Source: a virus. From it: a stretch of 26,309 nucleotides of DNA. Made by a program: the position numbers and the translations under genes. Under the pieces are notes generated by a model. It searched no databases, was not told where the DNA came from, and saw only the letters and a program-made list of their open reading frames with translations. Location: positions 1-26,309 of the IMG/VR virus record IMGVR_UViG_3300046002_000332; one strand, given 5' to 3'. Position 1 is the stretch's first letter; every line of letters begins with the position of its first letter. This document shows positions 7,882 to 23,379 of the stretch, piece by piece.

Positions 7882-9974
7882 TGGCTGAACCAACTATTGA
7901 CGATCTGTATAAATCTTTGCAAGCTGCTGATGCGGCTGGTGATAGGCAGGCGGCTCAAGCCTTGGCCGACTACATCAGGTCATTGCAAGTACCAACGCCA
8001 AGCGAAAAACAGATTGAAATGACTACTGGTGCGCCTTTAGGTGTAAGGGCTGCTGTCGGCTCTTCCACCACCAGTGAAGATAAGTTGGCAACGCTAAAGA
8101 AATTCTTTCCTGACGCACAGCCATACGACAAAGACAACTTCATCTATACCGATCCAAAGACCGGTAGGCCAACACTGATGAATGAAAAGAATCCTGTACT
8201 CTTTGGCGTGCCTTTGCCCACTATGGGTGATATTGCTGGCGCTTTGCCAGAGATTTCAGAGTTTGTTGGTGCTGGTACTGGCGCTGCTCTTATGTCACCA
8301 TTTGGACCGGCAGGCATGGTTGCTGGCGCTGGTACTGGTGGCGCAGCATTCAAGAAGCTGTACGAGATGGGTATGCAATATGGCGGCCCATCAGTTGAAA
8401 CCAGAGGCGGTGCAGAGCAAGCCACTGGAGTCACAAAAGATATTTTGCTAAACGCTATTGGTCAGCGTGGTGGACAACTTGCGGAGAAGTATCTGCCGCA
8501 ATTGCTAACACCAATCCAACAAAAGCTGATGGGACTGCGCCAAGGCATACCGCAAGCAGCATCAAGACTCGGCATCAAACTGCCTGCCGGTGTCGCTACG
8601 CAAAGTCCTGCTGTGCAGCGTTTGGAGGCTGGACTCGCGCAAACGCCTGGCGGCGCTCAAGTCATTGCACCAAGGTACGAATTGATGCAAGAGCAGATGG
8701 GTACTGCATCAAGAAATATTGCCGAAGATATTTCTAGAGCAAGCAAGACACCTACACCGCAAATATTTACAGAAAAAGGTGGACTTGGAAAATTCTTACA
8801 AGAAGGCTCTCAAGCTGCTGGTAAAAGATTTGAGGAAAGACGCGAACAGATTGATGACATTGTGGCAAACGCTGTTGGCTCACAAAACCGATTCCCAGCA
8901 ACAAACACAGCCCAATTGGTTGCTCAACTTCAAGCTGAAATTGCCAAAAGTCCACAAACACTTGGACCAATTTATCAGCCAGTCATTGATCGCGCCATGC
9001 GTGTTGTGTCTGATGCCCAATCTGGGTTTGGTGGTGTTCCATTTGCTGCGCTTAGAAAAGAGCGAACAAGCATTGGAAAAGATTTAGCCCGACCAGATAT
9101 TTCTGGTCTTTCAGACACATCAAATTTTGCGCGTTTGTATGACGCATTGCGTAAGGATGTGGTGGCTGCGGCTAATCAGTCTGGCGACATTGCAAGCCGA
9201 GCAATCAAATTGCATGATCGATATGTACGGTTCAATCGTGAAGTCAATCTGCCTGCACTACAAAAAATCGTAGATCAAAATCTTGATGTGAATGCCGTCA
9301 ACTTTGCGATGGCAGGCACAAAAGATGGCATGGGTAGACTTCAACTGTTGATGCGTAATTTCAGACCAGAAGAGCGAGACACATTGGCCGCATCAGTTTG
9401 GCAACAGCTTGGCAATGCAAAAGCTGGCATGAAAGAAGGCGTAGATGTAGGGGCTGACAGCTATGAATTCAGCGCCAATACATTTTTGACAAACTGGAAC
9501 AACTTAAGCGACAGCGCAAAGCGAGTCCTGTTCTCTGGCGAGAGATACCGAAACATCATTCCATCCATCAATGACTTGGTTAAAGTAACTACAGGTGCGC
9601 GTGAAGCTGGCAAGGCCGTCAACACATCTAACACTGCTGGCGCTCAGATGGTTACATCAGCCTTATTAGGCGCTGGTGGTTTGGTTGGCGGTGGAGTTGG
9701 TGGCGATATGACGCAAGCACTTGTAGGCGGTTTATCTGCCCTGAGTGGACTTGTCTTGACCAGCAACACAGCAGCCAAGCTATTGGAAAGCCCAAGATTT
9801 ATTCGATGGGTTTCTGACACCAGTAAATTGGTTGCCAACAATCCCAACACACTGACAACACAAATCGCAAAACTGTCGGCAATTGCAACAGCAGAGCCAG
9901 GCATGAGCGATGCGATTGAAGCGTATTACAAACAAATCAAACCAATTGCTGCCGAAGTGCGTAGAGCGAGGTAA
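7881..9974 (+). CDS. Long internal virion (ejection-type) protein with hydrophobic C-terminal segment
   Basis: This 697-residue protein starts at an ATG overlapping the previous TAA. The N-terminus, TIDDLYKSLQAADAAGDRQA, matches a short helical-hairpin motif ('L.AAdaAGD..AA..LA.yIr') common at the start of phage internal proteins. Residues about 130-165 are Gly/Ala-rich and hydrophobic (FVGAGTGAALMSPFGPAGMV). A long helical body follows. Near the C-terminus lies a second hydrophobic stretch (about 590-632, VTSALLGAGGLVGGGVGGDM). Two potential membrane-inserting stretches fit a protein ejected into the cell envelope with the genome. No lytic transglycosylase motif was found. Confidence 0.7.
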   Translation: MAEPTIDDLYKSLQAADAAGDRQAAQALADYIRSLQVPTPSEKQIEMTTGAPLGVRAAVGSSTTSEDKLATLKKFFPDAQPYDKDNFIYTDPKTGRPTLMNEKNPVLFGVPLPTMGDIAGALPEISEFVGAGTGAALMSPFGPAGMVAGAGTGGAAFKKLYEMGMQYGGPSVETRGGAEQATGVTKDILLNAIGQRGGQLAEKYLPQLLTPIQQKLMGLRQGIPQAASRLGIKLPAGVATQSPAVQRLEAGLAQTPGGAQVIAPRYELMQEQMGTASRNIAEDISRASKTPTPQIFTEKGGLGKFLQEGSQAAGKRFEERREQIDDIVANAVGSQNRFPATNTAQLVAQLQAEIAKSPQTLGPIYQPVIDRAMRVVSDAQSGFGGVPFAALRKERTSIGKDLARPDISGLSDTSNFARLYDALRKDVVAAANQSGDIASRAIKLHDRYVRFNREVNLPALQKIVDQNLDVNAVNFAMAGTKDGMGRLQLLMRNFRPEERDTLAASVWQQLGNAKAGMKEGVDVGADSYEFSANTFLTNWNNLSDSAKRVLFSGERYRNIIPSINDLVKVTTGAREAGKAVNTSNTAGAQMVTSALLGAGGLVGGGVGGDMTQALVGGLSALSGLVLTSNTAAKLLESPRFIRWVSDTSKLVANNPNTLTTQIAKLSAIATAEPGMSDAIEAYYKQIKPIAAEVRRAR

Positions 9975-13684: not shown

Positions 13685-14065
13685 TTAAGCTGCGGCTCTC
13701 TCTTCAAAAAAGCGCTTTGACTCTGTACCTTGATCGATGTAAGCGTCAGAGCCGTAAGCTGGATCGACTTCAAACCAGCATGATGCTGTCAAGGCTTTAC
13801 CTGATGCCAAGGTTGCATTAACTTTGGCGGCCAAATCTTCAACGATTGTCTTGGCAGTCTCACGAATATCAGCAAAATTAACTTCGCCAGTTTCTTCGCA
13901 CTCCACAACTTTTACGCCAGGAAAAGTTTTTTCGTGACGAAAGCGGCGACCAGCTGCATTCTCAATCAGGACATAGTATTTTTCAGCGATGAAAGGGTGA
14001 CCGTCACAAGCGAGACCGGCTTCGTAAAGGTCAGATACTGCATATGCTTGGTAAGTTGCGTTCAT
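13685..14065 (-). CDS. First gene of the minus operon, conserved hypothetical protein
   Basis: This 126-residue acidic protein is next to the operon promoter, with an AAGGA ribosome site 8-9 bp before ATG 14065. It begins with MNATYQAYAVSDLYEAGLAC and has an alternating strand pattern (KYYVLIENAAGRRFRHEKTF; VKVVECEETGEVNF). A helix (DIRETAKTIVEDLAAKVNAT) and WFEVDPAYGSDAYIDQGTES follow. No domain is recognised. Its position directly downstream of a near-consensus promoter and upstream of a hairpin suggests it is among the most strongly expressed early proteins. Confidence 0.75.
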   Translation of the reverse strand: MNATYQAYAVSDLYEAGLACDGHPFIAEKYYVLIENAAGRRFRHEKTFPGVKVVECEETGEVNFADIRETAKTIVEDLAAKVNATLASGKALTASCWFEVDPAYGSDAYIDQGTESKRFFEERAAA

Positions 14066-16989: not shown

Positions 16990-18207
16990 ATGAAATATCT
17001 CTCACTTTGCAGTGGTATTGAGGCGGCAACAGTAGCATGGCATCCCCTTGGATGGGAGGCAGTAGCGTATTCAGAGATCGAAAAGTTTCCATCTCAGGTG
17101 CTGGCGCACCACTACCCACAAACGCCAAACCTTGGCGACATGACGAAATTTAAGGAGTGGTCAATTGAATCAAATGTCGATCTTCTCGTTGGAGGAACTC
17201 CCTGCCAATCATTCTCAGTCGCAGGACTCAGAAAAGGATTGGATGACCCGCGTGGCAACCTCATGCTTACCTATCTTGCCATTGCTAAACAACATAGCCC
17301 CAACTGGTTGGTCTGGGAGAACGTCCCCGGCGTTCTGTCCTCCAATGGAGGACGGGACTTTGGCAGCTTCCTTGGAGGGTTGGCAGAATGCGGGTATGGG
17401 TTCGCATACAGGGTGCTTGACGCTCAATACTTTGGAGTGGCACAGCGCCGCCGCCGTGTGTTCGTTGTCGGATACCTTGGAGACTGGCGATGTGCCGCAG
17501 CGGTTCTTTTTGAGCGCCACAGCCTGTCAGGGAATCCTGCGCCGAGCAGAGAAAAGAGGGAAGACCCTGCCAAGTGCCTTACACGAGGCGCTGGCCAGCG
17601 TTACGACTTTGAAACAGAAGACTTGATTCCAGCCTACGGCATACCTGGCAACTGGATTGGACGCAAGCCTGAGAACGGCGGCAACGCCACAGAGCCGATG
17701 CATGACATTGCACCATGTCTCACTAAGGCTGATCAGCATGGCGTGGCGCAACCCATCTGCCTGATGGATCAAGGCGGTAGCGTGATGAACATTGAGCACG
17801 ACATGACAGGAACTCTTAGGCGTGAAACGCATGGGCATGAACCTATCGTGATGCAACCTATTCCATCCAGCGCCCAAACGGCATGGTCAATGAACTTAAT
17901 GTCTCCTGGCCGTAAGGTTCGCGAAGATCATGGCGTTGGCGCTCTTACACAACAATGCCATTGTCCTACACAAGGAAATGAAGCAGTAGTAATTCAACAA
18001 GCCATGGCAGTGCGCCGACTCACGCCAAAGGAATGCGAGAGACTCCAAGGCTTTCCCGACAACTACACCGACATCCAAGCCAAGGGCAAGCCAACGCCAG
18101 ACGGTCCAAGGTACAAGGCCTTGGGCAACAGCATGGCAGTGCCTGTGATGGCGTGGATCGGACAACGCATCGAACAAGTAGAGGCAATATGCAAGCAGAA
18201 CAAATAG
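16990..18207 (+). CDS. DNA (cytosine-5) methyltransferase
   Basis: This 405-residue enzyme shows the C5-methyltransferase motifs in order. Motif I is LSLCSGIEAATVAW. Motif IV is GGTPCQSFS with the catalytic Cys72. Motif VI is ENVPG (110-114), motif VIII is QRRRRVF (152-158), and motif X is GNSMAVPV (379-386). The stretch between VIII and IX (about 190-336) is the target recognition region and contains degenerate repeats. It transfers a methyl group from S-adenosylmethionine to cytosine, probably to protect phage DNA from host restriction. No restriction enzyme gene is adjacent, so it looks like an orphan enzyme. The last 19 bp overlap the primase-helicase gene. Confidence 0.95.
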   Translation: MKYLSLCSGIEAATVAWHPLGWEAVAYSEIEKFPSQVLAHHYPQTPNLGDMTKFKEWSIESNVDLLVGGTPCQSFSVAGLRKGLDDPRGNLMLTYLAIAKQHSPNWLVWENVPGVLSSNGGRDFGSFLGGLAECGYGFAYRVLDAQYFGVAQRRRRVFVVGYLGDWRCAAAVLFERHSLSGNPAPSREKREDPAKCLTRGAGQRYDFETEDLIPAYGIPGNWIGRKPENGGNATEPMHDIAPCLTKADQHGVAQPICLMDQGGSVMNIEHDMTGTLRRETHGHEPIVMQPIPSSAQTAWSMNLMSPGRKVREDHGVGALTQQCHCPTQGNEAVVIQQAMAVRRLTPKECERLQGFPDNYTDIQAKGKPTPDGPRYKALGNSMAVPVMAWIGQRIEQVEAICKQNK

Positions 18208-20390
18208 CCAAGACGCTGGGCAACGCAAAGAAAGCAAACGGTCAGTGGGTGGCGAGTTGCCCTGTACCGAGTCACGGCAAAGGCAACGGCGACAAGAATC
18301 CATCACTCAGCATCGACATCAATGATGAGGGCAAGCCTCTCTTCCACTGTCATGGTGGGTGCAGCCAAGAGGATGTCTTTCACACCATCAGAGCATTGAA
18401 CTTGCTACCGGAACTCTTGGAAAGACCAGACCCACTCGCCAACATCAGACCAATCCCAAAGGTGGAATTCCAGCAGGAGTGGATTTACACCGATGAAGAC
18501 CGTCAGCCGGTATTCGTTAAGCAGCGGCTGCGCGTAGGGGAGTCAGGCAAGACATACCGTCTGTACAAGATTGACGAGGCAGGCCGAAAGCAGAGCACGC
18601 TGTCAGACGCACGCATCGTTCCCTACAACTTACCCGCGCTGCTGGACGCGAAGACCGCAGGCAGAAACATCTTCCTAGTTGAAGGCGAGAAGGCGGCAGA
18701 CGCGATCAAGTCAATTGGCATGATCGCCAGCACCGCGCACACTGGCGCTGGAAGCTGGCCTGCCGCCATCACAGAATACTTTGCTGGCGCTCAAGTGATC
18801 ATCCTGCCCGACAACGATGTGGCCGGCTGGGGCTATGCCTACAAAGCGGCAGAGGCAATATTGCCCATCGTCAAGTCACTCAAGGTAGTTGACCTCGGTC
18901 TGCAAGGCCAAGGGGACGATGCCTACGAATTCATCGAGGAGGGCGGCGGCAGGGATAAACTGGTGGCGCTGGTCAAGGCGGCAACCGTCATCACATCGTT
19001 GGATCAGCTAACGATGCCCGAACGGTTGAATCCAATTACCAAGTCATGTACACAAAACGAGGAAATGTGTACAGATCAACTGGATCATGTACAGAAAACA
19101 GCAGAAATTGAACATGAGTTTGCGGCAGAGCCAGCAGCACCACCAAAGCCGACAAAGCAAATCGCCATCGAGCACTGGGACTCGATACAAGATGAGCCGG
19201 TCAAGTGGCTGATCCACAGTGTGATTCCGGTGGGCGCGTTTACCGCCTTATATGGACCGCCAGGCTCATTCAAGTCCTTTATCGCGCTGGACATTGCCGA
19301 GTCAATCGCCACCGGCCGCACTTGGATGGGCAACGAAGTCACAGAATCCGGCGCTGTTTTATATATAGCCGGTGAAGGGTTCGGGGGAGTCGGTGCGCGG
19401 ATCAAGGCGTGCAAGCAGCACCATCAGACAGAGGACGGTGCGCCAATCTATGTGATCAGACACCAGCTAAACCTCAGATCAAGTGTGGAGGACTTCAACG
19501 CGCTGATGGTGGCCGTAGAGACGCTGGTTATGGAAACTGGCATGGACTTTAAGTTGATCGTTGTGGATACGCTGGCGCGAGCGTTTGGCGGTGGAGATGA
19601 GAACTCGGCCTCAGACATGATGCAGTTTGTGGTGACCTGTGGACGCATACAGCAGATCGTGCAAGGCGCTGCGCTGATGATTCTGCATCACAGCGGCAAG
19701 GACTCAGCCAAGGGAATGCGGGGATCGTCTGCGCTCTTAGGGGCTGTGGATACCGAACTGGAGTTGATCAGGTTTGAGGATTCTATGAAGGGCATCATCA
19801 GAACCGCCAAGCAAAAGGACGGTGAAGATGGGACGCGCTACGGCTTTGAGATGGTCAAAGTCGAACTGGCAGCGCCAGCCGGATCACTGCAAATCGGTGA
19901 CCCAATGACCAGCTTGGCGGTGCAAGCGTCAGATTCAGCCAAAACAGATCACACAAAGATGACTGAGAAAAAGCCACCAGCCAACAAAGATGGTGGCAAA
20001 TGGCAGCCATATGAGTTGCCAGCACTATATAGGGCAATTAAGAACAAAGGATTCACTGATGTAATAGATGGCGTAAGCCTGAAGGTGGTCAATATTGATG
20101 ACTGGAAAGAAGAATTGACGCTACAAGCCAGTGCCTATGACGCTACAAAGACGCAAATCAGTAACGCAATTTGGACAGCAAAGGGGAGACTTAAAACTAA
20201 AAAATTGGGTGGACATCACGGCAAAGTCGCATGGCTTAACCAAGATGTTTTGACAAAAATGGCAAGTGAGGCGGCTTACAAATTCAACAATCAGCAATCA
20301 GAAGCGATCAGAAGCGATCAGAAATCAGACGCTTCAGATGATCAGAAATCAGAATCGGAAACGAGAGTCTATAAGACTCGTAGTTTCTGA
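18189..20390 (+). CDS. Zinc-finger/TOPRIM primase fused to RecA-like replicative helicase
   Basis: This is a 733-residue protein from ATG 18189, with AGAGG upstream; an open frame back to 18033 lies inside the methyltransferase gene and was not used. The N-terminal CHC2-like zinc site uses Cys24, His29 (CPVPSH), Cys54 and Cys58 (HCHGGC). The TOPRIM domain has NIFLVEGEKAADAI (Glu165) and VIILPDNDVAG (Asp208, Asp210). After a linker (270-330), the RepA/DnaB-like ATPase has Walker A GPPGSFKSF (356-364), Walker B LIVVDT (Asp460) and MILHHSGKD. It should unwind DNA and, if the TOPRIM part is active, make primers. The C-terminal 90 residues are basic, then Ser/Asp-rich. Confidence 0.92.
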   Translation: MQAEQIAKTLGNAKKANGQWVASCPVPSHGKGNGDKNPSLSIDINDEGKPLFHCHGGCSQEDVFHTIRALNLLPELLERPDPLANIRPIPKVEFQQEWIYTDEDRQPVFVKQRLRVGESGKTYRLYKIDEAGRKQSTLSDARIVPYNLPALLDAKTAGRNIFLVEGEKAADAIKSIGMIASTAHTGAGSWPAAITEYFAGAQVIILPDNDVAGWGYAYKAAEAILPIVKSLKVVDLGLQGQGDDAYEFIEEGGGRDKLVALVKAATVITSLDQLTMPERLNPITKSCTQNEEMCTDQLDHVQKTAEIEHEFAAEPAAPPKPTKQIAIEHWDSIQDEPVKWLIHSVIPVGAFTALYGPPGSFKSFIALDIAESIATGRTWMGNEVTESGAVLYIAGEGFGGVGARIKACKQHHQTEDGAPIYVIRHQLNLRSSVEDFNALMVAVETLVMETGMDFKLIVVDTLARAFGGGDENSASDMMQFVVTCGRIQQIVQGAALMILHHSGKDSAKGMRGSSALLGAVDTELELIRFEDSMKGIIRTAKQKDGEDGTRYGFEMVKVELAAPAGSLQIGDPMTSLAVQASDSAKTDHTKMTEKKPPANKDGGKWQPYELPALYRAIKNKGFTDVIDGVSLKVVNIDDWKEELTLQASAYDATKTQISNAIWTAKGRLKTKKLGGHHGKVAWLNQDVLTKMASEAAYKFNNQQSEAIRSDQKSDASDDQKSESETRVYKTRSF

Positions 20391-20435: not shown

Positions 20436-21113
20436 ATGGCAACAAAGAAAAGCTCAAGACAGCATCCAGTGGCGGTGAGTCCAAGTCCACAGGCAGATGC
20501 GTGGACGGTTTATGTTCAATCCAAGTTGGTGGAGTTGGAGGCCGCCAAAGCGGTCAGCGACAGGAAATGGGGAGAAAATCGACTGATTACTTTAGTAGAC
20601 AGTGAACTCAGAGAGAAATTCTGGATTCAGAACAGCAGATTGCACCAAGCGATTGGCGCAAAGGATCGTGCGAAGTTTGATTCCAGTTTGGCGGGAATGG
20701 TCCGAGCGTATGCAGTGCTCGATCAGTGGGCAGCCGATCAAGGCATGAGTCCAGCCAGCGACAGCATTCCGAGGATTGAGTGGGAGATGCAGTCAGGTCA
20801 GGTTATGGTGATTGTCAGAACGGTCAACGAGACTCTGGCTATGCAGCGCGAGAGACAGGAACTGGACAACAAGTGTATTTGGAGCATGGAAGAGTTGGAG
20901 GTGATCTTCAACGATCCCTTTGTGCAGCAGGTCATTGCTGTCAAAACGTTTGATCCAACAGCAAAGGTGGTCAGCTTCAAAGCAAACGAGAAATTCGGTG
21001 GACAATCAGGCTTTGATGATTTAGAAAACGATCTTCATGCATTTGAAGGCGGTCAGCCAGAAATGAAATTCAACAGCAAACAAGCGGAGAAATACAAACA
21101 TGGAACAAATTAA
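20436..21113 (+). CDS. Conserved hypothetical protein upstream of terminase
   Basis: This 225-residue protein has AAGGA 8 bp before ATG 20436. Residues 1-22 are a basic Ser/Pro-rich lead (MATKKSSRQHPVAVSPSPQA). Helices follow (WTVYVQSKLVELEAAKAVSD; AGMVRAYAVLDQWAADQGMS). Then come a strand-rich part with QVMVIVRTVNETLAMQRERQ and SMEELEVIFNDPFVQQVIAV, and a charged tail. No domain is recognised. The position between replication and terminase genes is where phages often place packaging or late regulatory accessory genes. It overlaps a 29-codon gene by 14 bp. Confidence 0.7.
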   Translation: MATKKSSRQHPVAVSPSPQADAWTVYVQSKLVELEAAKAVSDRKWGENRLITLVDSELREKFWIQNSRLHQAIGAKDRAKFDSSLAGMVRAYAVLDQWAADQGMSPASDSIPRIEWEMQSGQVMVIVRTVNETLAMQRERQELDNKCIWSMEELEVIFNDPFVQQVIAVKTFDPTAKVVSFKANEKFGGQSGFDDLENDLHAFEGGQPEMKFNSKQAEKYKHGTN

Positions 21114-21189
21114 ACGATTAGCGGACTTGATCAAGTCACTGGTACTGGACATCGTCCAGCGCGTTAAAACAGCTTTAAAGCGGGTCTGA
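21100..21189 (+). CDS. 29-residue amphipathic peptide
   Basis: Read directly from the sequence. ATG 21100 to TGA 21187-21189 encodes MEQIKRLADLIKSLVLDIVQ followed by RVKTALKRV. Hydrophobic residues repeat every three to four positions, with Lys and Arg on the other face, so the peptide should form one amphipathic helix. GGAG lies about 10 bp upstream. The gene starts inside the preceding one and ends 2 bp before the small terminase GTG, so it fills the gap exactly. Function unknown; membrane-active peptides have this form. Confidence 0.5.
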   Translation: MEQIKRLADLIKSLVLDIVQRVKTALKRV

Positions 21190-21191
21190 GC

Positions 21192-21623
21192 GTGGCAGGA
21201 AGGCCGAAATTCAGGGAAGACATGGCATTGCTTGAGGATTTGCCCGATGACATGATTGTGTCCATGTTCGAGGCTGGCAAGTCGCAGACGCAGATTTGCT
21301 ATGAGCTTGGCATCGGGCGCAGGGCGCTAGAGCAATGGATCGAAGATACCGATCCCTCTATAATTGCGCGTGCGCGCGCGAAAGCCGCCGATAAACTCGC
21401 GGTGGAGACTCTGGACATTGCTGACAGCATGGCCGACAGCAACCCGCAGCGCGATGTCCAGCGCATCCGAACTAGGCAATGGCTGGCCGAAAGGTGGGAT
21501 CAGAAGACTTATGGCTTACAAAAAGCCGCCTCGGTAAACATCAACATCCAAGACCTACGCATGGCGGCACTGCGCCATGTCGAGGTTGTTGATGACTTAT
21601 CCACAGAAAATCGCAATGGTTGA
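21192..21623 (+). CDS. terS: Terminase small subunit (Sf6-like)
   Basis: This 143-residue protein starts at GTG 21192 (MAGRPKFREDMALLEDLPDD). An N-terminal helix-turn-helix covers about residues 20-50 (DDMIVSMFEAGKSQTQICYE, then GIGRRALEQW). A central helical region (ARARAKAADKLAVETLDIAD) would oligomerise. The motif RIRTRQWLAERWDQKTYGLQ and the C-terminal beta segment VNINIQDL are typical of Sf6/P22-type small terminases, which bind the packaging site and recruit the large subunit. It lies 280 bp before the large terminase gene, an unusually long gap. The stop is preceded by a perfect DnaA box. Confidence 0.88.
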   Translation: MAGRPKFREDMALLEDLPDDMIVSMFEAGKSQTQICYELGIGRRALEQWIEDTDPSIIARARAKAADKLAVETLDIADSMADSNPQRDVQRIRTRQWLAERWDQKTYGLQKAASVNINIQDLRMAALRHVEVVDDLSTENRNG

Positions 21624-21786
21624 GCACATTGGCCTGTGCATAACTGCAAAGCGCCTGCAAAACGAGCAGAAACAGGCCAGTTATCCACATTTGACTTAAC
21701 ATAATGGACATCGTGTTAAATGGATATTGTAAGCAATCTGTAAGAAAGCATATGAATCAATGACTTACGCTGAAAAGATATCCACA
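21597..21786. other. DnaA-box cluster between terminase genes, candidate origin
   Basis: Two perfect TTATCCACA boxes (21597-21605 and 21681-21689) and one near-perfect ATATCCACA (21778-21786) lie in the same orientation within 190 bp. The DNA from 21690 to 21780 is AT-rich compared with the flanks (e.g. TTGACTTAACATAATGG). This is the usual look of a DnaA-dependent origin. The first box is inside the end of the small terminase gene; the others are intergenic. No long gene is present in 21624-21903. Confidence 0.6.
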
Positions 21787-21844
21787 GGCAGAATCAACTG
21801 TCAAGTGGCCGCGGTGACCGGCCTGCTGGCTGGCGCGGCGCGAT

Positions 21845-21873
21845 GCCCCCCCCTTGCGATTTGCGGCGGGGGC
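21845..21873. other. GC-rich hairpin before the large terminase, possible packaging site
   Basis: GCCCCC (21845-21850) and GGGGGC (21868-21873) can pair with a 17-nt loop; an uninterrupted run of eight C lies at 21846-21853. The DNA from 21810 to 21880 is much richer in G+C than the AT-rich stretch before it. Position beside the terminase genes makes a pac or cos site conceivable, but nothing here proves cleavage. Confidence 0.35.
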
Positions 21874-21903
21874 GGTTGATGACGCAACCGAACACCTACC
21901 GAA

Positions 21904-23379
21904 ATGACTGACCCGACCCCCACCACCCCCACCGCGAAAAAGCGCGTCCCGAAAAAAAATTCCGAGGACTTGCTGACGAATAACCCTTTTGTCGAATTCG
22001 TCAAGCTGTACAAGAATAACCCTGTCCTGTTTGTTAAGGAAGTCCTTAACACCGAGCCTGACCCTTGGCAAGTGGAATTCTTGAATCACATCGCGTCAGG
22101 CAGCAGACGCATCAGCGTGAGATCGGGCCACGGTGTCGGCAAGTCCACGGCTAGTGCCTGGGCGATGATCTGGTATCTGCTGCTGCGCTTTCCGGTCAAG
22201 GTGGTGGTGACAGCGCCCACCAGCAGCCAGCTCTACGATGCCTTGTTTGCCGAGGTTAAGCGTTGGGTAAAGGTGCTGCCGCCAATGCTGGCCGATATGT
22301 TGGATGTGAAACAGGACCGTATTGAGGTGATTGGCGCAAACGAGGAGGCGTTTATCTCAGCGCGTACATCGCGTGCCGAGCAGCCCGAAGCCTTGCAGGG
22401 TGTCCACAGCGATCATGTGATGCTGGTGGGAGATGAGGCATCCGGTATACCTGAGAAGGTGTTCGAGGCGGCATCTGGATCAATGTCCGGCCACAACGCC
22501 GTCACGCTACTACTGGGAAACCCTGTGCGTTCCAGCGGATTCTTCTACGACACGCATAACCGATTGGCGGGAGATTGGGTGACGATGAAGGTGTCCTGCG
22601 CCGACTCGCCGAGGGTGAGCGAGGCGTACATCGAGGAGATGAAGTCGCGGTACGGTGAGGAGTCCAACGCCTACCGAATCCGCGTGCTGGGTGAGTTTCC
22701 AAAGTCTGACGAAGACACGGTGATACCGATGGAGTTGTTGGACTTGGCGATGAATCGGGATGTGGTGGCCTCGCCTTACGCGCCACTGGTCTGGGGCTTG
22801 GATGTGGCACGCTTTGGCTCTGACCGTTCGGCGCTGTGCAAACGCCGTGGGAACGCGGTGACAGAGCCGATCAAGACATGGAAGAACTTAGACCTGATGC
22901 AGTTGACCGGTGCGGTGGTGGCCGAGTACGAGGCTTTGGCGCCAAGCGACCGTCCAACCGAGATACTGGTGGACAGCATTGGTCTTGGCGCTGGCGTGGT
23001 TGACCGTCTGCGGGAGTTGAAGCTGCCGGCCAGAGGCATTAATGTCGCGGAGTCACCGGCCATGGGCGGTACTTACCGCAATCTGAAGGCTGAACTTTGG
23101 TACAAGGCCAAGGCGTGGTTGGAGCAGCGTGACTGTCGGTTGCCAAAGGATGAGCTGCTGATTGCTGAGTTGGCCACCGTGCGTTATATGTTTACGAGCA
23201 ACGGAAAGATTCAGATTGAGAGCAAAGATGAGATCAAAAAGCGGGGTTTGGCCTCACCTGACAAGGCTGATGCTTTCTGTTTGACCTTTGCATCAGATGC
23301 GGTGATTGGCATGATGGGATCGAAGGCTGGCAACAACTGGGCGCAACCGTTGAAAAGAAACCTCTCAAGGGTTGCATAA
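21904..23379 (+). CDS. terL: Terminase large subunit (P22/Sf6-like)
   Basis: This 491-residue protein has all hallmarks of the DNA-packaging motor. The ATPase has Walker A SGHGVGKST (74-82), Walker B VMLVGDEA with Asp177 and Glu178, and a coupling motif near TLLLGNPVRSSG. The C-terminal RNase H-fold nuclease has GLDVARFGSDRSAL (Asp300), ILVDSIGLG (Asp357) and SPDKADAF (Asp456). Length and motif spacing match P22/Sf6-type enzymes, usually associated with headful packaging. Start ATG 21904 is the only ordinary start in frame after a stop at 21880. It lacks its own ribosome site, but a 10-codon frame beginning at ATG 21879 ends just after it. The N-terminus is Pro/Thr/Lys-rich and probably flexible. 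Confidence 0.96.
   Translation: MTDPTPTTPTAKKRVPKKNSEDLLTNNPFVEFVKLYKNNPVLFVKEVLNTEPDPWQVEFLNHIASGSRRISVRSGHGVGKSTASAWAMIWYLLLRFPVKVVVTAPTSSQLYDALFAEVKRWVKVLPPMLADMLDVKQDRIEVIGANEEAFISARTSRAEQPEALQGVHSDHVMLVGDEASGIPEKVFEAASGSMSGHNAVTLLLGNPVRSSGFFYDTHNRLAGDWVTMKVSCADSPRVSEAYIEEMKSRYGEESNAYRIRVLGEFPKSDEDTVIPMELLDLAMNRDVVASPYAPLVWGLDVARFGSDRSALCKRRGNAVTEPIKTWKNLDLMQLTGAVVAEYEALAPSDRPTEILVDSIGLGAGVVDRLRELKLPARGINVAESPAMGGTYRNLKAELWYKAKAWLEQRDCRLPKDELLIAELATVRYMFTSNGKIQIESKDEIKKRGLASPDKADAFCLTFASDAVIGMMGSKAGNNWAQPLKRNLSRVA

Follow-up and report, generated by a model that had tools for sequence, protein, structure and literature searches.

A putative DnaA–IHF–Xer element beside the terminase genes of tailed phages

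An element of about 300 bp, reaching from the 3′ end of the terminase small subunit gene (terS) of a freshwater phage towards the large subunit gene (terL), brings together four DnaA boxes, an exact IHF consensus and a dif-like XerC/XerD site. It was found in a 26,309-bp stretch of viral DNA, called the window below. The identities of these sites are well supported, and from them we infer their function: the element may be a DnaA/IHF origin run by the host and fused to a Xer site for resolution or circularisation, a reading to which we assign a probability of about 50%. This composition suggests that the phage borrows host machinery to start its replication and to circularise or separate the copies of its genome.

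Sites in the window

A preliminary description of the window reported two copies of TTATCCACA and one of ATATCCACA, all in one orientation and between the terminase genes, with AT-rich DNA between them. The three boxes were confirmed, each at its exact position, but their single orientation was not, because a fourth box (TTATGCACA, 21635–21643) had been overlooked on the minus strand. Thus, four DnaA boxes in both orientations lie within 190 bp of the 26,309-bp window. Boxes 2–4 are indeed intergenic, whereas box 1 is located inside the terS frame (21192–21623). The AT-rich DNA between the boxes was borne out as well, since nearest-neighbour energy places the lowest stability of any 100 bp in the window at 21681–21780. 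Boxes 1 and 3 are the only exact copies of TTATCCACA in the window. Chance was ruled out as the source of the boxes: 1500 sequences of the window's length (26,309 bp) drawn from a first-order Markov model never contained, within 190 bp, either four boxes with up to one mismatch or two exact boxes. The features of the region are as follows:

18033–20390, plus strand: primase-helicase of the replication module preceding the element (phrog_906/239/6088)
20436–21113, plus strand: conserved 225-aa protein between primase-helicase and terS (low-confidence model, pLDDT 66)
21192–21623, plus strand: terS, terminase small subunit (phrog_1482, E 1e-11; Pfam Sf6_terminase)
21597–21605, plus strand: DnaA box 1, TTATCCACA, overlapping the 3′ end of terS (codons TTA TCC ACA)
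21635–21643, minus strand: DnaA box 2, TTATGCACA; TTATCCACA or TTGTCCACA in relatives
21681–21689, plus strand: DnaA box 3, TTATCCACA; absent from one lineage (L066–L080)
21681–21780, no strand: least stable 100 bp in the nearest-neighbour energy scan, candidate DNA-unwinding region
21694–21721, minus strand: dif-like XerC/XerD site, ATTTAACACGA (XerC-like arm) TGTCCA (centre) TTATGTTAAGT (XerD arm)
21728–21744, plus strand: two TGTAAG repeats 11 bp apart; TGTAAG/TGTCAG echoed in most element copies in alignments
21755–21767, plus strand: IHF consensus AATCAATGACTTA (WATCAANNNNTTR), the sole exact match in 26.3 kb, conserved in relatives
21778–21786, plus strand: DnaA box 4, ATATCCACA; most relatives carry TTATCCACA/ATATCCACA close to this position on the other strand
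21846–21875, no strand: C-run facing a G-run (CCCCCCCC...GGCGGGGGCGG), conserved, 30 bp before terL
21904–23379, plus strand: terL, terminase large subunit (phrog_2, E 1.2e-48)

Besides box 2, the IHF site and the dif-like XerC/XerD site at the centre of the element had been missed, and with the latter the putative origin becomes a composite element of origin and recombination site. The conserved near-palindrome TTAACATAATGGACATCGTGTTAAA between boxes 3 and 4 is the dif-like site when read as a 28-mer. It has the layout of 11 + 6 + 11 bp with the XerD core TTATGTTAA, as in Xer recombination sites (dif, psi, cer). The chromosomal dif of Rhodoferax ferrireducens is ACTTGATACGA TGTATA TTATGTTAAGT (Carnoy and Roten 2009, PMC2731167), and by direct count the window site is identical to it at 23 of 28 positions. 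The XerD arms agree perfectly, and the XerC arms of both sites have the unusual end ACGA. The canonical XerC arm CGnATAA is absent from the window, where the arm ATTTAACACGA is close to the atypical Rhodoferax one, ACTTGATACGA. Based on this likeness to one chromosomal dif sequence, that of Rhodoferax, the host of the phage probably belongs to the family Comamonadaceae.

A weight matrix was built from 24 other proteobacterial dif sites taken from one published table, with Rhodoferax left out. The window site scored 20.3, the next locus in the window scored below 0, and the best scores of random 26-kb sequences had a mean of 2.4 (SD 3.2, maximum 9.9, n = 20). The dif-like site was also the top-scoring one in all eight related contigs scanned with the matrix. 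Between lineages, the inner arms of the Xer sites are conserved and the centre varies freely. From its sequence and conservation, the site is very probably a genuine Xer site.

Conservation and genomic contexts of the element

The preliminary description had proposed looking for the boxes in relatives. These were fetched by similarity of the TerL protein, so that the boxes themselves were not selected for, and each of the 67 related loci extending into the region kept three to four boxes with conserved spacing, in the order plus, minus, plus, the fourth box lying some −105 to −160 from terL. In 29 dereplicated relatives, nine of the nine columns of box 1 and seven of the nine of box 2 were invariant, and the mean major-allele frequency of most spacers was 0.56–0.81. 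The codons TTA, TCC and ACA of box 1 were identical in all 29, whereas the nine preceding terS codons vary synonymously. Since the wobble bases of box 1 are invariant and those of adjacent codons are not, the constraint acts on the DNA, and terS coding was ruled out as its cause. The window, its nearest relatives and some remoter lineages have box 4 on the plus strand, most of the other lineages on the minus strand; the box switches strand yet nearly holds its position, indicating that a box is wanted there and that its orientation is less important. In near-complete contigs (their completeness is uncertified; two have the 127-bp end overlaps typical of circular assembly), nearly all exact copies of TTATCCACA fall inside the element. 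All but a few of the relatives are metagenomic, and the copies of the element are correlated by descent. We conclude that the DnaA boxes are almost certainly under selection. Their conservation, together with the presence of an exact IHF site and of AT-rich DNA of low stability beside them, strongly supports the predicted use of host DnaA that the preliminary description had put forward.

The element had no match in Rfam, and a structured RNA was provisionally rejected because box 2 reads TTGTCCACA in many relatives, which breaks a possible stem between boxes 2 and 3 with no compensation. A comparison of the DNA of the element with phage and plasmid records gave no relevant match.

IMG/VR was scanned with a 25-mer that selects the dif-like core, not the boxes or the IHF site. 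About 120 stretches were obtained, about 40 of them with no terS/terL of the window's family nearby. DnaA boxes and the IHF consensus, the latter at +59 or +69/70, were present in 40 of 40 copies from such other contexts, and the number of boxes per element copy was 3–7. In a second context (contigs G025 and G026), the box layout is that of the window and the element is inverted relative to the genes, between a different terS and a 682-aa gene that precedes a different terL. In a third context (G024, G027, G028 and others), three plus-strand boxes lie at −111, −100 and −77, with variable boxes past the IHF site. Here, the element is placed between a different terL (419 aa) and a homologous replication module, whose primase-helicase is about 44–50% identical to the group-1 proteins and which also encodes a homologue of the 225-aa protein. 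Primase-helicase homologues thus precede the element outside the window's context too. The element has thus been transferred between phages, and since the terminases differ between contexts and one copy is inverted, it goes with the replication module and not with one terminase. The inverted copy also suggests that it would work in either orientation.

Several contigs of these sets call for separate mention. G024 carries two elements 33 kb apart, but a dif-flanked prophage was rejected, as the contig consists of two related phage sequences that have been overlapped. Likewise, L141 and L144, in which terS is followed by an inverted replication module, were not accepted as junctions and are most likely assembly or amplification chimeras; both break at or near a GC-rich stretch after crossing the element. 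In L221, tandem GTTATCCACAGGTTATCCACAG in the context-3 element (8860–9300) matches several Microviridae records (best match 30 bp, 96.7%, E 8e-4). In the window itself, near 14.0 kb, the minus-strand stretch 13685–14065 has about 85% protein identity to G024 and its neighbouring genes about 45–57%, which points to a recent exchange, perhaps of an immunity-type gene.

A sister group of 80 more loci was found with the TerL of L083, a MAG contig (59% identical to that of the window). Many of them come from saline-water samples, as judged loosely by metagenome codes. A canonical dif-type site was present upstream of terL, in constant orientation, in 72 of the 73 loci that cover this stretch, most of them with the canonical XerC arm. 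The exception, L236, has the upstream region and no dif-like site; its TerL is 94% identical to that of L083. The inner arms, ATAA and TTATGT-AA, were essentially invariant across 37 distinct sites, and the centres fell into 23 variants in the 72 sites, 27 of which begin with TGT. In the isolate record C72C1, the site reads TTGTCGCATAA CGTCCA TTATGTAATCT and is located between terS and terL. The DnaA box cluster was absent from all 43 sister-group loci checked in detail. As dif occurs here without the boxes, the two halves of the element are separable; the Xer site is thus older and more widespread, and the DnaA/IHF part is confined to the freshwater lineages.

Replication start, recombination and alternative explanations

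The preliminary description offered two uses of host DnaA, initiating replication beside the packaging genes and timing terminase expression. The first is the better of the two. Its candidate origin has the company expected of one: the least stable 100 bp, the single exact IHF site and a primase-helicase module that adjoins it despite the different terminases. On these features, we give origin function a slightly better than even chance. The second use would require that a terL promoter is repressed or timed by DnaA. DnaA is known to act as a transcription factor, and the element lies 280 bp upstream of terL; however, a consensus scan of 21100–22000 found no plus-strand sigma-70-like promoter and no terminator, the second context has the element in the opposite orientation to the genes, and the terminases differ between contexts. 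Timing of terminase expression is therefore disfavoured, and control of terL transcription is the least likely of the rivals, with very little probability left to it.

An iteron cluster had also been named as a competing origin. The only tandem array found near the replication genes that could correspond to it, 3.1 copies of the 10-mer AGCGATCAGA at 20293–20323, is a coding repeat inside the primase-helicase gene, in a C-terminal part that is unaligned in most relatives; it is thus a weak competitor and was rejected as an origin. Cumulative GC skew, another suggested check, was near-monotonic over near-complete relatives; it tracks gene direction, nearly all genes pointing one way, and so located no origin. 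Elsewhere in the replication module, an ORF for a cytosine-5 DNA methyltransferase (16990–18207) overlaps the primase-helicase ORF (18033–20390) by about 175 bp in a different frame. Structural matches of the 225-aa protein model were mostly unnamed phage proteins, and a search of the PDB gave no match.

The boxes and the IHF site could instead form a sink or converter of DnaA, like datA or DARS, that titrates host DnaA or changes its nucleotide state and would thereby restrain or stimulate host initiation during infection. At datA and DARS, DnaA boxes are paired with IHF or further factors, and such loci may also be carried by plasmids (ColE1 DARS; PMC5835720). Parts of this type are present in the sequence, with 3–7 boxes per element, but such a role leaves unexplained the central Xer site, the unstable stretch between the boxes and the constant place by the replication module, and we regard it as improbable.

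Under the preferred reading, a host-run origin joined to a Xer site, host DnaA would bind and oligomerise on the boxes flanking the unstable AT-rich stretch, and IHF would bind and bend the 50 bp between boxes. The AT-rich stretch would then open and the phage primase-helicase, encoded just upstream, would be loaded, as at a compact origin of the oriC type. Host XerC/XerD, bound at the dif-like site, would replace the missing phage recombinase and either resolve multimers of the circular genome or, if two copies of the element lie in terminal repeats, circularise incoming DNA.

Consistent with a missing recombinase, no tyrosine integrase (Phage_integrase) was found in 50 dif-bearing records by a Pfam-level search that was positive for 14 of 14 control genomes, and no serine resolvase was found in 30 such records. 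Two relatives of the same TerL family, MW202879 (68% identical) and Sinorhizobium phage phiM5 (55% identical), differ in having no dif-like site; the former carries a serine resolvase and the latter an annotated integrase. The dif site and recombinase genes thus appear complementary, but only suggestively so, as the recombinase-bearing relatives are two and divergent recombinases could be missed. Neither ParA/AAA_31 nor ParB_N was detected in 24 records, and stable plasmid prophages are therefore not evident; many phage-plasmids have no ParA or no ParB. The evidence for temperate life consists of a small HTH gene and a divergent operon.

The dif-like site could also serve as an attP by which XerC/XerD insert the phage at host dif, in the manner of IMEX, with the DnaA/IHF sites as an origin or as accessory sites. 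The presence of the site, the regulatory-looking HTH genes and the fact that no integrase was found agree with integration, as does the XerC-side TGT of the centre, which matches the dif of Rhodoferax (TGTCCA and TGTATA, respectively). However, the sites of TLCphi and the gonococcal island agree with the host on the XerC side and in the centre and diverge from it on the XerD side (PMC5357621). The phage sites are the contrary, with the XerD arm most conserved and the XerC side and centre variable, and in the saline-water group the 23 centre variants, with just 27 of 72 sites starting with TGT, also speak against integration. No host junction at the site was seen in any locus (although IMG/VR loci need not show junctions), and the upstream regions of the sister group are homologous to one another. 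A scan of a genome collection with TerL peptides returned one relative only, L083, in an Opitutae MAG; terS and terL are still joined on this contig, and the sole exact dif-type match in the MAG is on the phage contig itself. We therefore consider integration rather unlikely. With a conserved XerD arm and a variable XerC arm and centre, the candidate site resembles plasmid resolution sites more closely than an attP of IMEX, and the chances that resolution or circularisation is its role appear evenly balanced.

The place of the element between terS and terL raises the further alternative that the repeats together with the IHF site are bound by terminase, in the way of lambda cosB, or that the element belongs to a terminal repeat where packaging starts. 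The C-run facing the G-run before terL (21846–21875), kept in both the freshwater and the saline-water groups, is possibly related to packaging. In the phiM5 record, the annotated 357-bp terminal repeat ends 36 bp before terL. Contig ends also accumulate around the terL start (11 observed, 1.6 expected), which could mark a packaging terminus or a mere sequencing break at the C-rich stretch. The packaging alternative is nevertheless improbable: the same boxes occur with unrelated terminases and are inverted in the second context, and the repeat is the exact universal DnaA consensus with variable flanks. Location of the element in a terminal repeat is compatible with the preferred reading of an origin joined to a Xer site. 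It is speculation, by analogy, that ends like those of phiM5 would put the element in both terminal repeats, where XerC/XerD would join the ends.

Comparison with known systems

The origin of plasmid pSC101 contains a DnaA box and an IHF site. The phage element is similar in that host DnaA, host IHF and a XerC/XerD site would be combined on one small replicon. The psi site of pSC101, which serves to resolve multimers, differs from other Xer sites in its centre (PMC5357621), and the dif-like site of the phage also has a centre of its own. In contrast to the phage, pSC101 has RepA and iterons, and its psi lies apart from the origin with PepA/ArcA accessory sites; in the phage, the DnaA/IHF element encloses the Xer site, and the analysis identified no clear initiator. 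As in a bacterial oriC, consensus boxes of both orientations surround an unstable AT-rich stretch and an IHF site is present, but the phage element has only four boxes, a dif-like site inside and a phage primase-helicase adjoining. Phage-plasmid P1 has an oriR with DnaA boxes and uses Cre-loxP for dimer resolution. Like P1, the tailed phages described here would join an origin that relies on DnaA to site-specific resolution of dimers, but with host Xer in place of a phage recombinase; no ParA/ParB was found, and lysogeny as a plasmid would be hypothetical. Hijacking of host XerC/XerD is best documented for filamentous and other small phages and for islands. Like these IMEX (CTXphi, VGJphi, TLCphi, gonococcal island), the dif-bearing records have a dif-like XerC/XerD site and no integrase of their own. 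They differ in being tailed dsDNA phages of about 34–39 kb, in having a conserved XerD arm with a variable XerC side and centre, and in that no integrated copy was seen.

No description of a DnaA–IHF–Xer element in tailed phages was found in the open-access literature. We tentatively suggest, as a possibility less likely than not, that the element is a portable miniature cassette of oriC plus dif that moves between phages with different terminases and leaves circularisation, copy control and dimer resolution to the host, with DnaA and IHF starting replication and XerC/XerD joining the two ends or resolving multimers. Such a cassette would adjoin the packaging genes of integrase-less tailed phages, possibly inside terminal repeats.

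Large groups of tailed phages with no recognisable recombinases, in freshwater and in saline water, are characterised by conserved dif-like sites. If these sites are functional, many metagenomic phages called lytic because they have no integrase may have been classified wrongly or incompletely. With DnaA boxes, an IHF site and a Xer site within 300 bp, the element offers a clean, testable case of a virus that would use both the start and the end signals of the bacterial chromosome.
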